A DNA stretch of 64,000 nucleotides. It comes from a virus. The notes under the pieces are model-generated. The model was not told the DNA's origin and searched no databases. It saw only the letters and a program-made list of their open reading frames with translations. The position numbers were made by a program, and so were the translations under genes. The stretch covers positions 1 to 64,000 of the IMG/VR virus record IMGVR_UViG_3300037493_002420. The stretch is one strand, 5' to 3'. Below are positions 58,758-64,000 of the stretch, in pieces. Each line of letters starts with the position of its first letter. Position 1 is the stretch's first letter.

Positions 58758-58762
58758 ATTCT

Positions 58763-58788
58763 CTTCATCTTTATACTATTCTTGATAT
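58763..58788 (+). promoter_or_regulatory. CATCTT promoter copy 2
   Basis: TTCATCTTTATACTATTCTT. Column 22 of the alignment is G58784, which is also the first base of the closing helix of the ncRNA that follows. Confidence 0.8.
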
Positions 58789-59036
58789 AACAAGGAATGT
58801 TTTCAGGGGGGAGTAGGGCTAGCCGTAGCTACTACTTAATATACCTACGAGAGGAATCCTATGGAAAACACTTGTTATATCTTATTATTATAATGCAATG
58901 GTTGAACAAATGATACTATCATTGTAATAATAATTATGGAAAAGTCAGAGGCCTTTCCCTTATTGCTTTGGGAATGTAAGTACCGTAAAAGGTCTTAGCA
59001 AGACACAATTAGAGAGAACTATATGTTCTCTCTTTT
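58784..59036 (+). ncRNA. Structured ncRNA A with long closing helix
   Basis: No reading frame in this stretch. Promoter copy 2 ends exactly where an 11-bp perfect helix begins: GATATAACAAG (58784-58794) with CTTGTTATATC (58871-58881), continued inside by TGTTTTC/GAAAACA (58798-58804/58864-58870). A second 14-bp helix with one wobble follows (58882-58895/58920-58933), then hairpins GGAAA..TTTCC and GTCTT..AAGAC, and a terminator AGAGAGAAC/GTTCTCTCT ending about 59033 with T-run. About 250 nt. No known RNA family recognised. Confidence 0.75.
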
Positions 59037-59041
59037 TCCTA

Positions 59042-59068
59042 TTCATCTTATAACTATTGTTAAATATA
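59042..59068 (+). promoter_or_regulatory. CATCTT promoter copy 3
   Basis: TTCATCTTATAACTATTGTT, directly after the T-run of the ncRNA A terminator; drives the 61-aa gene at 59081. Confidence 0.78.
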
Positions 59069-59080
59069 AAATCAAATATT

Positions 59081-59266
59081 ATGGATGTAAAAACTATAAA
59101 TAAGATTATTAAAATGCTTGATGAAAAAACTAATACCATTAAACTTAATCAACCTGTACCAATCATTAAAGATTGGCATAATGGATTAGTACATGGCTTA
59201 GAAGAATTCAGAGAGCATTTACGTAAACTTACAGTAATTCATACTGATTTACAAAAAGAGGAGTAA
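59081..59266 (+). CDS. Small hypothetical protein (61 aa)
   Basis: 61 residues from MDVKTINKIIKMLDEKTNTI. The ATG at 59057 is rejected since it lies inside the promoter block. Helical (WHNGLVHGLEEFREHLRKLT) with an acidic end. Its stop TAA (59264-59266) is within a GTAA loop of its terminator. No family recognised; probably an early host-takeover protein by promoter class. Confidence 0.65.
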   Translation: MDVKTINKIIKMLDEKTNTIKLNQPVPIIKDWHNGLVHGLEEFREHLRKLTVIHTDLQKEE

Positions 59267-59275
59267 TCCTCTTTT
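59254..59275 (+). terminator. Terminator with stop codon in tetraloop (61-aa gene)
   Basis: Nine-bp inverted repeat AAAAGAGGA/TCCTCTTTT with loop GTAA, which holds the stop codon; T-rich tract follows and runs into promoter copy 4. Confidence 0.82.
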
Positions 59276-59280
59276 CTTTT

Positions 59281-59306
59281 TTTCATCTTTATACTAATAT
59301 AAATAT
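59281..59306 (+). promoter_or_regulatory. CATCTT promoter copy 4
   Basis: TTTCATCTTTATACTAATAT; best match to the consensus. Drives the 123-aa gene at 59326. Confidence 0.82.
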
Positions 59307-59325
59307 AAATTTAAAACTTAAAATT

Positions 59326-59697
59326 ATGAAAGTTATAACTTACAAAAAGAAAATTGAAGTAGAAGCTACTGTACCTTTTCCTGTTATCACATTTGTTCCT
59401 GGAAAAGTAAGAAAGTTTGAAGATGGTTACTCATGGGATGCTATGGGTTATGTAGCTAGATTTGATGGACTTACTAATGATGGATATCATAAAGTAACAG
59501 GTATGTATTATACAAGCATAGATAAAATGCTTGAAGCATATGTCATGGAAAACTTTAATAAACGTACAGGTTATGGTTCAGTAGATTGGCATGTGTATTC
59601 AGGTAAAGATGTTAACCTACCTGAATTATCTGAATTAGAAGATACAAATGGTAATGATGACCACGCTGATTTAGTTAATATGTTCAAAAACTTATAA
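59326..59697 (+). CDS. Hypothetical protein (123 aa), array gene
   Basis: 123 residues: MKVITYKKKIEVEATVPFPV, then a compact alpha/beta part (DGYSWDAMGYVARFDGLTND, YYTSIDKMLEAYVMENFNKR) and an acidic C-terminus (ELSELEDTNGNDDHADLVNM). No family recognised. Own promoter and terminator. The acidic tail is a feature of many small phage takeover proteins, but this is only suggestive. Confidence 0.72.
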   Translation: MKVITYKKKIEVEATVPFPVITFVPGKVRKFEDGYSWDAMGYVARFDGLTNDGYHKVTGMYYTSIDKMLEAYVMENFNKRTGYGSVDWHVYSGKDVNLPELSELEDTNGNDDHADLVNMFKNL

Positions 59698-59715
59698 GGG
59701 AGAGCAATCTCCCTT
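59696..59715 (+). terminator. Terminator of the 123-aa gene
   Basis: Eight-bp inverted repeat AAGGGAGA/TCTCCCTT with loop GCAA; the first two A are part of the stop codon. Followed by TTGGGTTTC. Confidence 0.72.
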
Positions 59716-59730
59716 TTGGGTTTCTTTTCT

Positions 59731-59754
59731 TTTCATCTTTATACTAGTATTGAG
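59731..59754 (+). promoter_or_regulatory. CATCTT promoter copy 5
   Basis: TTTCATCTTTATACTAGTAT, with the expected start purine at 59752, two bases before the closing helix of ncRNA B. Confidence 0.82.
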
Positions 59755-59897
59755 AATAGTTTCAGCAGGGGTAATCTCTGAACGGGTAAGTTTTTTAAAA
59801 GTTTCCTTGATAATATAAAAGGAAAGTATTTAATTACACACAGGCTGAAAGTGTATGTCAAGTTGCCTTAATTCCGGTACTGAAACTATTCTTTTTT
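59752..59897 (+). ncRNA. Structured ncRNA B, closing helix doubles as terminator
   Basis: No reading frame. A perfect 12-bp helix, GAATAGTTTCAG (59754-59765) with CTGAAACTATTC (59880-59891), closes a 138-nt RNA and is followed at once by a T6 run. Inside are hairpins TTTCCTT/AAGGAAA and TACAC/GTGTA. Like ncRNA A, the helix starts at the promoter's predicted start site. The G-rich CAGGGG after the 5' arm is shared with A. No known family recognised. Confidence 0.75.
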
Positions 59898-59901
59898 CTT
59901 T

Positions 59902-59928
59902 TTTCATCTTTTCACCATTATTAGTATT
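59902..59928 (+). promoter_or_regulatory. CATCTT promoter copy 6
   Basis: TTTCATCTTTTCACCATTAT, drives the 128-aa gene at 59947; abuts the T-run ending ncRNA B. Confidence 0.76.
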
Positions 59929-59946
59929 TACTCTAAAATTAAACAT

Positions 59947-60333
59947 ATGAAAAAGTTAACAGCGTACAAGACAGCAAAAAAAGAATTTGATGTAGTTTCA
60001 GAAGAAGTAATTTCTTTAGAAAATCAACTTGATGATACTAAAAGGATTGAAGTATCTTCCTCATTAAGTATTGATAGAAACTCAAGTGAATCACAATTCA
60101 TTTATGCTATTGGTATTATCAATCAACAAATTGCTACTTGCAAAGAACTTGATATTGATACTACACCAAGAGAAGAAATGAAGAAAGCTTGTATTCAGAT
60201 TAGAAATCTTGTGAAAGAACACAGAGCTTGGGATGATTATGAAAATGAACTATGTACTTATGTTAATCAAGTATATAAACTACTCACAGAAGAAGAGAAG
60301 TTTAGTTTGTTAGATTATCCAAAGAAGAAGTAA
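59947..60333 (+). CDS. Hypothetical helical protein (128 aa), array gene
   Basis: 128 residues, almost all helical: KKLTAYKTAKKEFDVVSEEV, FIYAIGIINQQIATCKELDI, MKKACIQIRNLVKEHRAWDD, YVNQVYKLLTEEEKFSLLDY. Probably a small helical bundle. No family recognised. Own promoter (copy 6) and terminator at 60342. Confidence 0.7.
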   Translation: MKKLTAYKTAKKEFDVVSEEVISLENQLDDTKRIEVSSSLSIDRNSSESQFIYAIGIINQQIATCKELDIDTTPREEMKKACIQIRNLVKEHRAWDDYENELCTYVNQVYKLLTEEEKFSLLDYPKKK

Positions 60334-60341
60334 TTAATAAG

Positions 60342-60359
60342 GAGAGTGTAAAAACTCTC
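60342..60359 (+). terminator. Terminator of the 128-aa gene
   Basis: GAGAGT/ACTCTC with loop GTAAAA, followed by TTTGTTTTCTTTTTTTTT, which runs into promoter copy 7. Confidence 0.72.
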
Positions 60360-60376
60360 TTTGTTTTCTTTTTTTT

Positions 60377-60402
60377 TTCATCTTTTGACTATTCTTGATA
60401 TT
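60377..60402 (+). promoter_or_regulatory. CATCTT promoter copy 7
   Basis: TTTCATCTTTTGACTATTCT, drives the 72-aa gene at 60421. It shows why an ATG at 60361 is not a start. Confidence 0.78.
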
Positions 60403-60420
60403 AACTCTAAATTTAAAAAG

Positions 60421-60639
60421 ATGAACAAAATTAAAATCAACACCGCAAGATTGAGAAGAGAAGTTAAAGCTGAAATTAATTCAGCAAGAATTATCTCTGA
60501 AGAGAAGTCACCTATGTCATCATTTGACAGAAAGACTTTAACAATGCTTAAAGCAGAAGTATCTGATATAGATAGAGTAGCTTTAAGTAAGTTAATCTCA
60601 AACCGTTCAGGTTATAGAGTCTTGAGCACAAGGGATTAA
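60421..60639 (+). CDS. Small basic hypothetical protein (72 aa)
   Basis: 72 residues from MNKIKINTARLRREVKAEIN. The frame extends upstream through the promoter, so 60421 is the start. Basic helices (FDRKTLTMLKAEVSDIDRVA, LSKLISNRSGYRVLS). Basic character would allow nucleic-acid binding, but no motif is recognised. Confidence 0.68.
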   Translation: MNKIKINTARLRREVKAEINSARIISEEKSPMSSFDRKTLTMLKAEVSDIDRVALSKLISNRSGYRVLSTRD

Positions 60640-60647
60640 CACAATAC

Positions 60648-60670
60648 AGAGAGGGCTTTAAGCTCTCTCT
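60648..60670 (+). terminator. Terminator of the 72-aa gene
   Basis: AGAGAG/CTCTCT with inner GCT/AGC pairs, followed by TTATTTTTTTC into promoter copy 8. Confidence 0.75.
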
Positions 60671-60681
60671 TTATTTTTTTC

Positions 60682-60706
60682 TTTCATCTTTATACTGTTA
60701 TAAATA
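60682..60706 (+). promoter_or_regulatory. CATCTT promoter copy 8
   Basis: TTTCATCTTTATACTGTTAT, drives the 71-aa gene at 60728. Confidence 0.8.
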
Positions 60707-60727
60707 TTCACTCTTAAATTAAATATT

Positions 60728-60943
60728 ATGTATACACAACAAAATATCAATAATCAAAGATTTAGCATACGGTTCTGTAATGTTGCTAAATATTTAGGAT
60801 TTAAAAAGGTAGGACCATTTGAAAAACTATTAAGACAAATGCACCCTAATAATAAAATTAGTTTTGGACCATCACATATGCGTGTTGGTAGATTGCTAAA
60901 GGAAATTACTGATTATTATAAATATGAAACTAGGGATAAATAA
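60728..60943 (+). CDS. Small basic hypothetical protein (71 aa)
   Basis: 71 residues, basic: RFSIRFCNVAKYLGFKKVGP, FEKLLRQMHPNNKISFGPSH, MRVGRLLKEITDYYKYETRD. The helix-turn spacing is compatible with a small DNA- or RNA-binding protein, but no family is recognised. Stop codon in the loop of its terminator. Confidence 0.66.
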   Translation: MYTQQNINNQRFSIRFCNVAKYLGFKKVGPFEKLLRQMHPNNKISFGPSHMRVGRLLKEITDYYKYETRDK

Positions 60944-60948
60944 TCCCT
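60932..60948 (+). terminator. Terminator with stop codon in loop (71-aa gene)
   Basis: AGGGA/TCCCT around loop TAAATAA, which holds the stop (60941-60943), followed by TTTTTTATTTC into promoter copy 9. Confidence 0.72.
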
Positions 60949-60955
60949 TTTTTTA

Positions 60956-60982
60956 TTTCATCTTATAACTAATACTAAATAT
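60956..60982 (+). promoter_or_regulatory. CATCTT promoter copy 9
   Basis: TTTCATCTTATAACTAATAC, only 7 nt before the ATG of the 61-aa gene at 60989. Confidence 0.78.
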
Positions 60983-60988
60983 AAAACT

Positions 60989-61174
60989 ATGGTAGTAGAA
61001 ACAGTAACACTAGAATTAGAGTGGACAGAGTATAAGTTATTAATGTCCTTGTTGAAAGAAACTAAAGATTGGGCTAATATACTTGACAGTGAAAGATTAT
61101 CAACAAAAATGTACAATGAGATATATGATAAACTATATACTCAACGTACTATAAAGAAATGCATTAGCACATAA
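60989..61174 (+). CDS. Small acidic hypothetical protein (61 aa)
   Basis: 61 residues: MVVETVTLELEWTEYKLLMS, then helices (LLKETKDWANILDSERLSTK, MYNEIYDKLYTQRTIKKC). No family recognised. The promoter's predicted start leaves a leader of about 12 nt. Stop TAA (61172-61174) lies in the loop of the terminator. Confidence 0.65.
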   Translation: MVVETVTLELEWTEYKLLMSLLKETKDWANILDSERLSTKMYNEIYDKLYTQRTIKKCIST

Positions 61175-61181
61175 GCTAATG
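61162..61181 (+). terminator. Terminator with stop codon in loop (61-aa acidic gene)
   Basis: Seven-bp inverted repeat CATTAGC/GCTAATG around ACATAA, followed by TATTTTTTTTT. The stop codon is in the loop. Confidence 0.85.
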
Positions 61182-61219
61182 TATTTTTTTTTGACGTGCA
61201 CTCCCTGACGTACACATCC

Positions 61220-61233
61220 TTGGCCTTCGGCAA
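61220..61233 (+). terminator. Small hairpin with U-tract before promoter 10
   Basis: TTGGCCTTCGGCAA followed by CTTTTTTTTT, which runs into promoter copy 10. A near-copy, TTGGCTTTCAGCAA, precedes promoter copy 11 at 61677 with a C-G to T-A change that keeps the stem paired. Likely a second terminator. Confidence 0.55.
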
Positions 61234-61240
61234 CTTTTTT

Positions 61241-61266
61241 TTTCATCTTTTTACTACTATTGATTT
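61241..61266 (+). promoter_or_regulatory. CATCTT promoter copy 10
   Basis: TTTCATCTTTTTACTACTAT, drives the 107-aa gene at 61293. Confidence 0.8.
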
Positions 61267-61292
61267 TATTTATTAATTAAAACTATATGATT

Positions 61293-61616
61293 ATGGCAAA
61301 TGTATTCAGTGAAACAAAAACACTACAGTCTTTCGGAACTTCACGTCAATTGACAGGTGTGAAATTAATTCAAAACCCAAAAGAGGGAGGGAAGTTATTT
61401 GGAGAATTCAGTAACGGGGAAACTGCACGTCTTGCAAAAGACGTAACAGACCTTAAAGGGGATTTATCAGTATCGTGGTTCACACCTGAATCAGGGGACG
61501 CTAGTTGGATGATACACCGTACAGGTGCAAGTGCAAATGTTGTAGCCGAGATGTCTTTCGGTGCACCAAGTGCAGTTGCTACACCTGTAGCGTCAGCTGA
61601 CTTAAAAGTCGGATAA
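61293..61616 (+). CDS. Small GC-richer array protein (107 aa)
   Basis: 107 residues from MANVFSETKTLQSFGTSRQL; the ATG at 61287 adds only two residues and is less likely. Beta-rich core (GVKLIQNPKEGGKLFGEFSN, LSVSWFTPESGDASWMIHRT) and an Ala/Val-rich tail. It is visibly richer in G/C and in preferred codons than its neighbours and has the strongest terminator of the array, which suggests high expression. Not recognised; a small abundant nucleic-acid or membrane-independent binding protein is possible. Confidence 0.72.
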   Translation: MANVFSETKTLQSFGTSRQLTGVKLIQNPKEGGKLFGEFSNGETARLAKDVTDLKGDLSVSWFTPESGDASWMIHRTGASANVVAEMSFGAPSAVATPVASADLKVG

Positions 61617-61620
61617 TATT

Positions 61621-61650
61621 ATACACCTACATAGAGATATGTAGGTGTAT
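61621..61650 (+). terminator. Strong terminator of the 107-aa gene
   Basis: Twelve-bp perfect inverted repeat ATACACCTACAT/ATGTAGGTGTAT with a 6-nt loop, followed by TTTATTTTTTTC. Confidence 0.88.
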
Positions 61651-61676
61651 TTTATTTTTTTCATATGTGCTTTATG

Positions 61677-61690
61677 TTGGCTTTCAGCAA
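61677..61690 (+). terminator. Small hairpin with U-tract before promoter 11
   Basis: TTGGCTTTCAGCAA followed by CTTGTTTTTTT into promoter copy 11; paired counterpart of the hairpin at 61220 with one compensatory base-pair change. Confidence 0.5.
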
Positions 61691-61698
61691 CTTGTTTT

Positions 61699-61725
61699 TT
61701 TCATCTTTATACTTATATAGATATT
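61699..61725 (+). promoter_or_regulatory. CATCTT promoter copy 11
   Basis: TTTCATCTTTATACTTATAT, last clear copy. No gene follows within 460 bp, so it should drive the RNA at 61720. Confidence 0.78.
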
Positions 61726-61940: not shown

Positions 61941-62188
61941 GGATTAAGTGATGAGAGGGTCTGATTGAGGGACTGAAATACTTTATCCTCTTCAATACCC
62001 TTCAACATACTTGGTAAATACCTCTCAAAGTAGGTACAGTACATAGTATATAGCTATTAGCCCTTGTACATTAGACCCTTTTACTTATAGTAATTGTTTA
62101 AGTACTCTTATATCTATTACTATTACTATATACTAGAGTATCACAGTAAACACATCCGGAATTCATTTAACCCACTAAAATATTATAT

Positions 62189-62341
62189 ATGAAAGAACTT
62201 AAAAAAGAAGACATACTAAGTATTGCAAAGAAAGAATATGAGATAGGTTTTAAACAGGGTATCTCTATAGGAATGTGGATAGGTGCATTTTTAGTTGGAA
62301 TACTATTTACACTATTTACATATTTCTTTCCTCTTCCTTGA
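62189..62341 (+). CDS. Small single-pass membrane protein (50 aa)
   Basis: Translates as MKELKKEDILSIAKKEYEIG then FKQGISIGMWIGAFLVGILF and TLFTYFFPLP. A basic/acidic amphipathic N-terminal helix is followed by one transmembrane helix at about 25-47. ATG preceded by the A/T-rich leader usual here. It is the only coding sequence in the 2.3 kb at the right end. ATCCGGAATT direct repeats flank it (62154-62163 and 62352-62361). Function unknown. Confidence 0.72.
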   Translation: MKELKKEDILSIAKKEYEIGFKQGISIGMWIGAFLVGILFTLFTYFFPLP

Positions 62342-62897
62342 GTGTAATTGTATCCGGAATTAAATAAAATTGGGAGTATGTGACCATGAAAGAGGCATAC
62401 ATTTTAACTAACAACTGGATATAATCAAGCGAATCACCAGTCTAAAAAAGAGTCAGTGCAATGGGTAGAGAAGCACATTAATCGTAACTGCCATAACTAA
62501 ATTATTAATGAAATTAAAGGCTACGTGTCAAGGTGGGAGGTCCATGTGACTATACTTGAGATGGGACAACTCATTGGGCTTTTTAATTTCATTTTTACTC
62601 TCATCCAAGCAGGATAGTTATGTACAGATTTACTCTGTAAAAAGTAATAGACTTAACCGTCTGTCTATTACATAATGATCAGGAGGGGAAACCCCGCTCA
62701 AGACCACATAATCAAGGGTTGCAACCTTGTGAGAGTACCAATTAAAATACGTGTTGCCCAAGCTTCTACAAGATTAGTTATCTTGTCAGTTCTCTTGTCT
62801 CATTGAGACATGCTACTGTAATGAGGACAGTACAACTTTGCTTTTAAGGCTACCTTGAAATAGGTAAGTGAGTGAGACTTAACTAGTCTAAAGCCTT
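62342..62897 (+). ncRNA. Non-coding stretch full of hairpins
   Basis: 556 bp with no protein-like frame. Many short perfect helices are visible in order: GTATG/CATAC (near 62376), ACTGG/CCAGT (62425), GTGC/GCAC (62457), the 12-bp element at 62507-62593, TTATGTA/TACATAA enclosing ACAG/CTGT and TAATAGAC/GTCTATTA (62620-62675), GGGGAAACCCC (62685), CAAGG/CCTTG (62714), ACAAGAT/ATCTTGT (62770) and TACTGT/ACAGTA (62813). This density suggests structured RNA continuous with the repeat units that follow. A weak CATCTT-like TTTCATTTTTACTCTCATC lies at 62587. Confidence 0.5.
62507..62593 (+). ncRNA. RNA element closed by 12-bp helix
   Basis: AATGAAATTAAA (62507-62518) pairs perfectly with TTTAATTTCATT (62582-62593), closing an 87-nt element that contains TCAAG/CTTGA. 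The 3' arm is followed by TTTT. Same architecture as ncRNA A and B. Not a tRNA: no T-loop or acceptor pattern is seen. Confidence 0.55.
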
Positions 62898-62967
62898 TGT
62901 AATGCACCATTCCTGATTCCCAAGGTCAGGCTATAAAGATTAGCTGTCTTATAGAGTGCAGAGGGGG
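62898..62967 (+). repeat. RNA repeat unit 1 (short form)
   Basis: Starts TGTAATGCACCA and ends GAGTGCAGAGGGGG, as do units 2 and 3, but only 70 nt long. TGCAC (62903-62907) pairs with GTGCA (62956-62960); inside are CCTGA/TCAGG and CTATA-AGA/TCTTATAG hairpins. It keeps the two ends of the longer units and lacks their middle. Confidence 0.6.
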
Positions 62968-63061
62968 ATCATTGTACAGAAAGCGGAGCAGTAGGCTGTT
63001 ACAATCAAAACAATAAAAGTTTTTATCATTTGTGCACAGGTGATAATTAAAACGAAGCTCC

Positions 63062-63339
63062 TGTAATGCACCACAACTCACGTGGATATAAAGACTTCTT
63101 GTGATCAGCATAGCTGGAAAGACAGTGAGTGAAAACTCCTACAAGATGTGAAACCACAATGATTAACCAATACCTGCAATAATATTCCTTTGAATGCAGG
63201 GTAAGGACATATAAGAGGTAACTGTCTTCTTTTAGTTAATCATTCTCCCAAGGGTGAGCAGTTGTAACATTAGTGATTGGCTCTAGGGGACACCTAACCA
63301 TAGTTTTTATTACAACTGAGTGCAGAGGGGTTATTAATT
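63062..63339 (+). repeat. RNA repeat unit 2 (about 280 nt)
   Basis: Conserved blocks shared with unit 3, in order: AATGCACC, CTCACGTGGATATAAAGACT (63077-63096), AAGATGTGAAACCACAATGA (63143-63162), ATCATTCTCCCAAGGGTGAG (63239-63258) and GAGTGCAGAGGGG. Helices: TGCAC/GTGCA (63067-63071/63320-63324), AATGATTAA/TTAATCATT (63158-63166/63236-63244), CAGTTGTAA/TTACAACTG (63259-63267/63310-63318). No protein frame. Variable loops separate the blocks. Confidence 0.72.
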
Positions 63340-63351
63340 ATTTAAAGTCTT

Positions 63352-63478
63352 TAATATCAAGTATAAAATGAGGCAAAATCCGCTAACCTCTTAGAGTATA
63401 GTCAGACTGCAGATAACTGCTATATGCTCACGTTCGATAAAATCTGCTGAAGTGAAGGTGTCAGCATACTTGATATTA
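63352..63478 (+). ncRNA. RNA element closed by perfect 13-bp helix
   Basis: TAATATCAAGTAT (63352-63364) pairs with ATACTTGATATTA (63466-63478), closing 127 nt that contain GAGGC..ACCTC and CTGCAGATAACTGC-type short pairings. It lies between repeat units 2 and 3. No reading frame and no known RNA family recognised. Confidence 0.62.
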
Positions 63479-63692
63479 ATAACATTAATCAATACACTAC
63501 TAGCTAGGGTGCTTACAGGGGGTTCCCTGATAGAATGTAGAATATAACAGAAGATGTAGGTTCTACTATTGATTTAATAAGTGTGGGTTGTTACACTATA
63601 ATAAAACAACTATCCAGTAAGCTGCTGGCGTGGGACTGTCCAGTATAGATACAAGACAGTAGGCTTTGGTCAATATGCCTTAATGACCATAA
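63479..63692 (+). ncRNA. Structured linker between repeat units
   Basis: No gene seen. TTAATCAATA (63486) can pair with TATTGATTTAA (63570) with one bulged T, and AGTGT/ACACT (63580), ACTGT/ACAGT (63633) and GGTC/GACC (63668) form hairpins. A CAGTAGGCT segment (63655) also occurs before unit 2 (63000 region), suggesting the repeat extends upstream of the marked units. Confidence 0.45.
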
Positions 63693-63999
63693 ATAATGCA
63701 CCATTCTCACGTGGATATAAAGACTTCTTGTTAACAATAGGGTAGGATAAAACCGTAAAGTCCCTGTTTTGGTCAAGATGTGAAACCACAATGATTAATA
63801 ATATCCTCTTATCTAAGAAGGACAGAGAACTATGTTATGTGAGCATGGAACTACTACAATTAAGTAGTAAGTTGAAATACATCTATTAATCATTCTCCCA
63901 AGGGTGAGCAGTTGTAATAGATATTAGCAGGTAAAGGGTTCAGCTGACTACTCCTGAATATATTTATTACAGCTGAGTGCAGAGGGGTTACTAATTAAC
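63693..63999 (+). repeat. RNA repeat unit 3 (about 305 nt)
   Basis: Same block order as unit 2: AATGCACC, CTCACGTGGATATAAAGACT (63706-63725), AAGATGTGAAACCACAATGA (63775-63794), ATCATTCTCCCAAGGGTGAG (63889-63908), GAGTGCAGAGGGG. Helices: TGCAC/GTGCA (63697-63701/63977-63981), AATGATTAA/TTAATCATT (63790-63798/63886-63894), CAGTTGTAAT/ATTACAGCTG (63909-63918/63966-63975); the last has a wobble where unit 2 has A-U/U-A, so pairing is kept although sequence changed. It reaches the window edge. Confidence 0.7.
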
Positions 64000-64000
64000 A

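Follow-up and report, generated by a model that had tools for sequence, protein, structure and literature searches.

Closest described systems

Twister ribozymes are built from the stems P1, P2 and P4 and three T1 pairs between the loops L4 and L1, with a conserved A at the cleavage site and a catalytic G in L1, and P1 is dispensable for their cleavage (PMC5408937). P5 is present in 1% of annotated twisters (PMC6154101). Among other RNAs of phages, theta ribozymes (hepatitis delta virus (HDV)-like; PMC10879173) are a self-cleaving class widespread in uncultured Caudoviricetes with predicted hosts mainly in Bacteroidota, while GOLLD and ROOL are large multi-domain noncoding RNAs of unknown function (PMC12286853). 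Here we describe repeated RNA units in a 68,460-base viral record (IMG/VR IMGVR_UViG_3300037493_002420), bases 1-64000 of which are the stretch analysed (the window). The comparison of these units with their homologues and with twister indicates that the repeated unit is probably a derived, enlarged twister-like self-cleaving ribozyme.

Anatomy of the repeated units

The locus harbours four homologous tandem units, one short (u1), two long of about 270-300 nt (u2 and u3) and a fourth (u4) past the window end (Table 1). The two homologous units of about 300 nt and the short form reported in the preliminary description of this DNA, with the block order claimed there, correspond to u1, u2 and u3, and the conserved loop it quoted (CTCCCAAGGGTGAG) was found as well. 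Every unit can be reduced to UAA-P2-CA-P4(UNNNAAG loop)-P5-A-P2'-GANNN, plus weak P1 flanks. The short form runs [P1] U-AA-UGCAC-CA[U/C][A/U]A-CUCAC-U-UCCCAAG-G-GUGAG up to P5, in which CAGUUGUAA and UUACAACUG are separated by 30-170 nt, and then A-GUGCA-GAGGG-[P1']. In the long form an additional domain lies between the P4 5' strand and UCCCAAG; it consists of P6 (GUGG/CCAC with the internal loop AUAUAAAGAC/AAGAUGUGAAA) and P7 (e.g. CUGAUUA/UAAUCAG). This two-helix L4 domain was present in approximately one sixth of the copies, and P5 with its 30-170-nt insert in every copy accepted by the structure scanner, which requires P5 pairing.

Table 1. Features of the RNA locus (window positions, except for u4).
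Feature	Position	Strand	Details
u1, short unit with P1 flanks	62894-62971 (core 62901-62965)	+	covariance model R1, 51 bits; structure scanner; predicted cleavage U62900/A62901; short P5 CTATAAAGA...TCTTATAG
u2, long unit	63064-63329 (core 63065-63329)	+	R1 model, scanner, pair statistics; predicted cleavage U63064/A63065; P2 63067-63071/63320-63324; P4 63077-63081/63254-63258; L4 UCCCAAG 63246-63252; P5 63259-63267/63310-63318; L1 GAGGG 63325-63329
u2 domain inserted in L4	63082-63244	+	24 distinct long forms compared; P6 GTGG 63082-63085/CCAC 63154-63157, internal loop ATATAAAGAC/AAGATGTGAAA; P7 AATGATTAA 63158-63166/TTAATCATT 63236-63244
u3, long unit	63694-63986 (core 63695-63986)	+	R1 model, scanner; predicted cleavage U63694/A63695; P2 63697-63701/63977-63981; P4 63706-63710/63904-63908; L4 63896-63902; P5 63909-63917/63967-63975; L1 GAGGG 63982-63986
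u3 L4 domain	63711-63894	+	P6 63711-63714/63786-63789; P7 63790-63798/63886-63894
u4, fourth copy just outside the window	G000:64167-64433	+	predicted cleavage 64167/64168
Promoter-like repeat TTTTTTTCATCTTTATACT	61693-61713	+	upstream of the RNA region; motif also precedes small plus-strand genes
Fourth module, hairpin GGGAG[CATG/TATG]TGACCATGAAAGAGG[CATG/CATA]CA	62368-62402	+	8 distinct copies
Second module ACTCTCATCCAAGCAGGATA...CAAGGGTTGCAACCTTGTGAGAGTACC	62597-62740	+	complementary ends TACTCTCA/TGAGAGTA
Third module (CTATCCAGTAAGCTGCTGGCG...)	63588-63692	+	directly upstream of u3

Covariation among homologous copies

Several of the counts given in this work rest on a purpose-made scanner or an anchor-selected alignment; those for T1 and the active site left the tested positions free. 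Forty-five short units, chosen by sequence anchors, were aligned (alignment A1). Changes on both sides were present in 15 of its 32 pairs, and 91.6% of the cells were paired. The covariation score was 0.274 compared to 0.117 in shuffles; none of 500 shuffles reached the score, and partner sliding destroyed the signal. P1, P2, P4 and P5 covary among the homologous copies in viral contigs. P2 was found as GCAC/GUGC, GCGU/ACGC, GCAU/AUGC, GUAC/GUAC and CACAC/GUGUG, and P4 as CUCAC/GUGAG, CCUGA/UCAGG, CUAUC/GAUAG, CCGGU/ACCGG and others. P1 pairing at the four inner positions was 0.81, 0.69, 0.62 and 0.66 (0.69, 0.45, 0.41 and 0.48 respectively in the swapped-flank control). Among the 24 distinct long forms, P6 was GTGG/CCAC in 16 and GTAG/CTAC in 8, and P7 pairing was kept through many sequence changes.

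The preliminary description had proposed a covariance model and a search for covariation in homologues; the model (R1) was built, and the pairs changing on both sides in A1 provide the covariation. The helix quoted there (CAGTTGTAA / TTACAACTG-TTACAGCTG) is present, but the change it cited is only a wobble (A-U to G-U), and the compensatory evidence comes from the homologues. A decayed gene, or chance repeats without RNA function, would fit an AT-rich region with tandem repeats; however, compensatory changes affect several helices and one pseudoknot in about 200 copies, with at most three background matches, and the probability of this explanation is negligible. This covariation agrees with the earlier view that the RNA is structured and functional, its loops conserved and its linkers variable, and that it is not a decayed gene.

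Comparison with the twister ribozyme

The twister features listed in PMC5408937 fit the phage units position by position, with P2 and P4 nested, P1 on the outside and AA facing GA. The stems P1, P2 and P4 are in the twister order and all three covary in A1; as in twister-P1 (RF03160, CL00120), the units are open at P1 (type P1) and have UAA at the cleavage site. L4 is U-NNN-A-A-G, and its NNN covaries with that of the L1 sequence GA-NNN, with T1 made up of three Watson-Crick pairs that join L4 to the 3' strand of L1. When T1 pairing was not demanded, the L4/L1 triplets were CCC/GGG (108), CCA/UGG (16), CAC/GUG (10) and UCC/GGA (1); besides a few background entries, the mismatches within the family amounted to three combinations (GAGGA or GAAGG with CCC; GAGGG with CCA). 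The active-site letters are also in place, with A at the U-A step and the catalytic G as the first G of GAGGG. In matches anchored only on L4 and P5, the cleavage-site AA was present in 89 of 94, the preceding U in 88 of the 92 alignable and GAGGG in 78 of 84.

Rfam twister-P1 is silent on the phage RNAs, and consequently the case for their identity was built on covariation and on genuine twisters of bacteria. A search with the same Rfam model over 391 bacterial genomes yielded six clear twisters (44-59 bits, E 4e-8 to 2e-12) with the same layout, UAA-UGCA-GCC-P3-P4 (e.g. UAA-UGCA-GCC...CGG-UCGCAAGC-CCG...UGCA-GAGCG). Their loops UCGCAAGC, UCACAAGC and UUACAAG match GAGCG, GAGUG and GAGUA respectively, and T1 covaries likewise. 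The Rfam twister consensus is UAA...CGGUCCCAAGCCCG...GAGGG; UAA, GGUCCCAAGC and GAGGG are in corresponding places. The RF03160 gathering score (67.2 bits) leaves out all six bacterial twisters, and twister is therefore under-reported by Rfam annotation.

Several observations weigh against assigning the units to twister. The canonical T2, in which the conserved GC of L2 pairs with two bulged nucleotides of L4, is missing, and only C14-G30 is left of it (A1 columns 15-32, invariant). A fifth P2 pair (C-G, U-A, U-G) takes up nucleotide 13, and nucleotide 31 can extend P4, being compatible, in 197 of 199 copies, with the base that precedes L4; P2 and P4 thus each gain a pair at the expense of T2, which keeps a single one. 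P2 has five pairs in A1, three of them changing on both sides, instead of the four pairs of twister, and additional P2 pairs may disturb the twister active site (PMC5408937). P1 is weak or absent in u1 and u2 of the window, and AAGGG or GAAGG replaces GAGGG in a few members. Rfam twister-P1 detected nothing in 20 records carrying the unit even at E<=10, and R1 scores genuine twisters weakly (13.6 bits at best). RNAfold was not impressive for u2 (z -0.55), but it was for u3 (z -3.05). The units also differ from twister in a P4 closed by U-G, C-G or U-A instead of G-C, in the absence of P3, in a P5 that is always there with long inserts, and in the domain within L4. As the two-pair T2 is lacking, we name them a twister-like variant and not a canonical twister.

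Some of these departures would suit a twister-like fold kept as a structural scaffold within a large ornate RNA, a binding or assembly platform as suggested for GOLLD and ROOL, whose cleavage is slow, regulated or lost. This is consistent with the reduced T2, the weak P1 of u1 and u2, the occasional loss of the catalytic G, the big inserts in P5 and L4 (one module is common to both insertion sites) and the other recurring modules, always on the ribozyme's strand. By contrast, T1, the builder of the active site, is maintained by covariation, and AA and GAGGG are conserved, at the frequencies given above, well beyond expected scaffold needs. We consider a mere scaffold unlikely, and a self-cleaving twister-like ribozyme is the preferred reading.

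Comparison with other known RNAs

No Rfam 15 family was found in the window or in L009, either at gathering score or at permissive E-values. GOLLD and ROOL were rejected, as their covariance models did not match, in line with the preliminary description, which recognised neither of them. The locus resembles both in being a large multi-domain noncoding RNA region of a phage, and it differs from them in its exchangeable inserts, in its ribozyme-like repeats and in not adjoining transfer RNA (tRNA) genes in the window. Theta ribozymes have an HDV-like fold beside tRNA 3' ends, whereas the phage units have a twister-like fold and are not adjacent to tRNAs; no theta match was obtained from Rfam, and L009 harbours no tRNA. 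A role in tRNA processing was also rejected, since tRNA genes are not adjacent in the window and are usually absent or kilobases away in the other phage contigs carrying the unit (carriers). ARAGORN reported transfer-messenger RNA genes in two carrier contigs (L022 8424-8818 and L149 887-1274). Hatchet, pistol, twister-sister and hammerhead are likewise small self-cleaving ribozymes found by comparative genomics, but their core letters and topology differ from those of the phage units, and none had an Rfam match.

Distribution and genomic setting

Related uncultured phages that carry the element number well over a hundred. Carrier and copy totals are lower bounds, obtained from the pattern matches listed in the viral collection. 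A 19-base pattern fixing only L4 and the P5 5' strand had at least 120 matches there (less than one expected by arithmetic), and at least 120 were also obtained with another pattern, in which the 5' side alone was fixed. The structure-based scan found at least 199 full copies vs. 3 in reversed or complemented controls, and R1 gave 180 matches in the first 162 loci. The core similarity search of INPHARED phages gave no match, and the element was not found in eight named crAss-like and Flavobacterium phages. R1 matches in crAss001 and Kehishuvirus 'tikkala' (17.6 bits) were discarded, as they lack the twister core and resemble coding sequence. Bacterial genomes (GTDB contigs) had 18 pattern matches, none with the full motif, which were taken as chance.

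Forty-one contigs of at least 58 kb were taken from the carriers for locus comparison. R1 matched 40 of them, one to three times each. A TerL related to that of the window was present in 37 (14 at 51% identity or more, window included), and the RNA strand was opposite to TerL in every long carrier in which both were found. Most loci harbour a single copy, and the gene-free span around the copies had a median of 772 nt, reaching 2.86 kb.

The window encodes a major capsid protein, a portal and a terminase, each of which matches PHROGs annotated with that function. The terminase has its named relatives mostly among Crassvirales and Flavobacterium phages (21-26% identity), and on this basis the phage is placed, from its predicted proteins, as a deep crAss-like lineage. 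Structural genes occupy the minus strand up to about 58 kb, and a block of small genes the plus strand from about 58.5 kb. From about 61.7 to about 64.45 kb (2.75 kb) there is almost no coding sequence, the only small open reading frame (ORF) being at 62189-62341; the long gene-less region of the preliminary description was therefore real. The TCCGGAAT motif is located on both sides of this 50-amino-acid ORF (62100-62189 and 62352-62368), and in other carriers a similar (T)TCCGG(A/G)A-type sequence precedes start codons by 30-60 nt. The promoter-like repeat TTTTTTCATCTTTATACT has 9 matches in the window (0.99 expected), one of them at 61696, just before the RNA region; it sits between the small plus-strand genes (58760-61713). 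Between u3 and u4, the stem AACATCACAG/CTGTGATGTT is followed by a T-rich run and is terminator-like (L009 13998-14070, equal to G000 63997-64069).

The units might alternatively be cis-regulatory leaders (riboswitch-like or 5' untranslated region stabilisers) of downstream phage genes instead of processing a noncoding RNA, a role that may coexist with cleavage. Many copies are 30-50 nt upstream of a same-strand ATG (range up to 130 nt), and a PcfJ-like ORF starts at 64473, 40 nt after the u4 end. However, different phages mostly have unrelated genes downstream (67 singletons; the largest cluster has 9 members), and some copies are in tandem or remote from any gene. We regard this role as unlikely. 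A DUF2828-like protein is the next gene downstream of the ribozyme in L052, L114 and L194 (28.8 bits in L052, against a cut-off of 29 bits).

Circular ribozyme RNAs use a layout of self-cleaving units in tandem on one strand, and the array matches it, as would be the case if its ribozymes excised RNAs for ligation into circles (retrozyme- or satellite-like). The single copy of most loci does not fit this, and circle production is disfavoured because RNA ligases are lacking in the carriers: RtcB was found in 0 of the 41 carrier contigs and the PF09414 RNA ligase in 1, a count that leaves a host ligase possible. We consider it very unlikely.

Other recurring RNA modules

The ribozyme units are accompanied by at least three further modules (Table 1). 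In the second module, with conserved TCCAAGCAGG and CAAGGGTTGCAACCTTG, the 5' arm was within 350 nt of the 3' part in 33 of 38 copies, compared to 139 of 8160 random places (1.7%), and it was on the ribozyme's strand in 29 of 29. The third module (24 distinct copies) was on the ribozyme's strand in 23 of 23, at a median distance of 87 nt, and is often directly upstream of ribozyme units in other phages too. It has TATCCAGTAAGYTRCTGGC between hairpins whose arms vary between phages (e.g. GACTGTC/GACAGT and GTTCA/TGAAC). Rfam searches of the second and third modules gave no match. The hairpin of the fourth module (GGGAGCATGTGACCATGAAAGAGGCATGCA) is common to 8 phages, and in the window copy the helix end is altered on both sides.

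Flanking-sequence matches may include neighbouring tandem units, and only specific cases were used. In one of them, the P7-loop module of u3 recurs as an insert in P5 of a second phage, L126 (E 1e-9, 74% over 88 nt), and therefore exchange of inserts from one insertion site to another seems to take place. The inserts common to different phages, and the modules that accompany the units, point to RNA domains recombining in the way protein domains do. The locus of about 2.7 kb may be a large modular phage RNA of a new class, in which exchangeable domains (the twister-like ribozymes and the three or more modules) keep position and strand in a deep clade of environmental crAss-like phages and are self-cut by the ribozymes; we hold this tentatively, at slightly less than an even chance. 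The preliminary description had considered a possibly new large phage noncoding RNA. This does not apply to the unit, whose fold is not wholly unknown (twister architecture and active-site letters, with new elaborations), but it may still describe the whole locus, where the units and the other recurring modules alternate.

Proposed role of the putative ribozyme array

The four tandem units would be part of one plus-strand transcript, and each would cleave the strand that contains it at the U-A step on its 5' edge (predicted sites in Table 1). Since each unit would cut at its own 5' edge, the array would be divided into fragments of about 164, 630 and 473 nt, each with a ribozyme at its start. 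The last unit would set the 5' end of the PcfJ-like messenger, leaving it ribozyme-capped. The proposed role is the processing of a long modular noncoding RNA together with the trimming of a downstream messenger; cleavage may be tuned or regulated by the L4 domain and the P5 inserts, or these may have functions of their own.

None of these twister-like RNAs is detected by the current Rfam model, and the reason why these ribozymes are associated with phages is unknown (PMC10085705). If the units cleave, a T2 of one pair, a longer P2 and a whole folded domain inside the catalytic loop L4 are all compatible with twister catalysis, and the view of what is essential for twister would change. Cleavage would also provide twister with a plausible biological setting, the processing of a dedicated noncoding locus of crAss-like phages.
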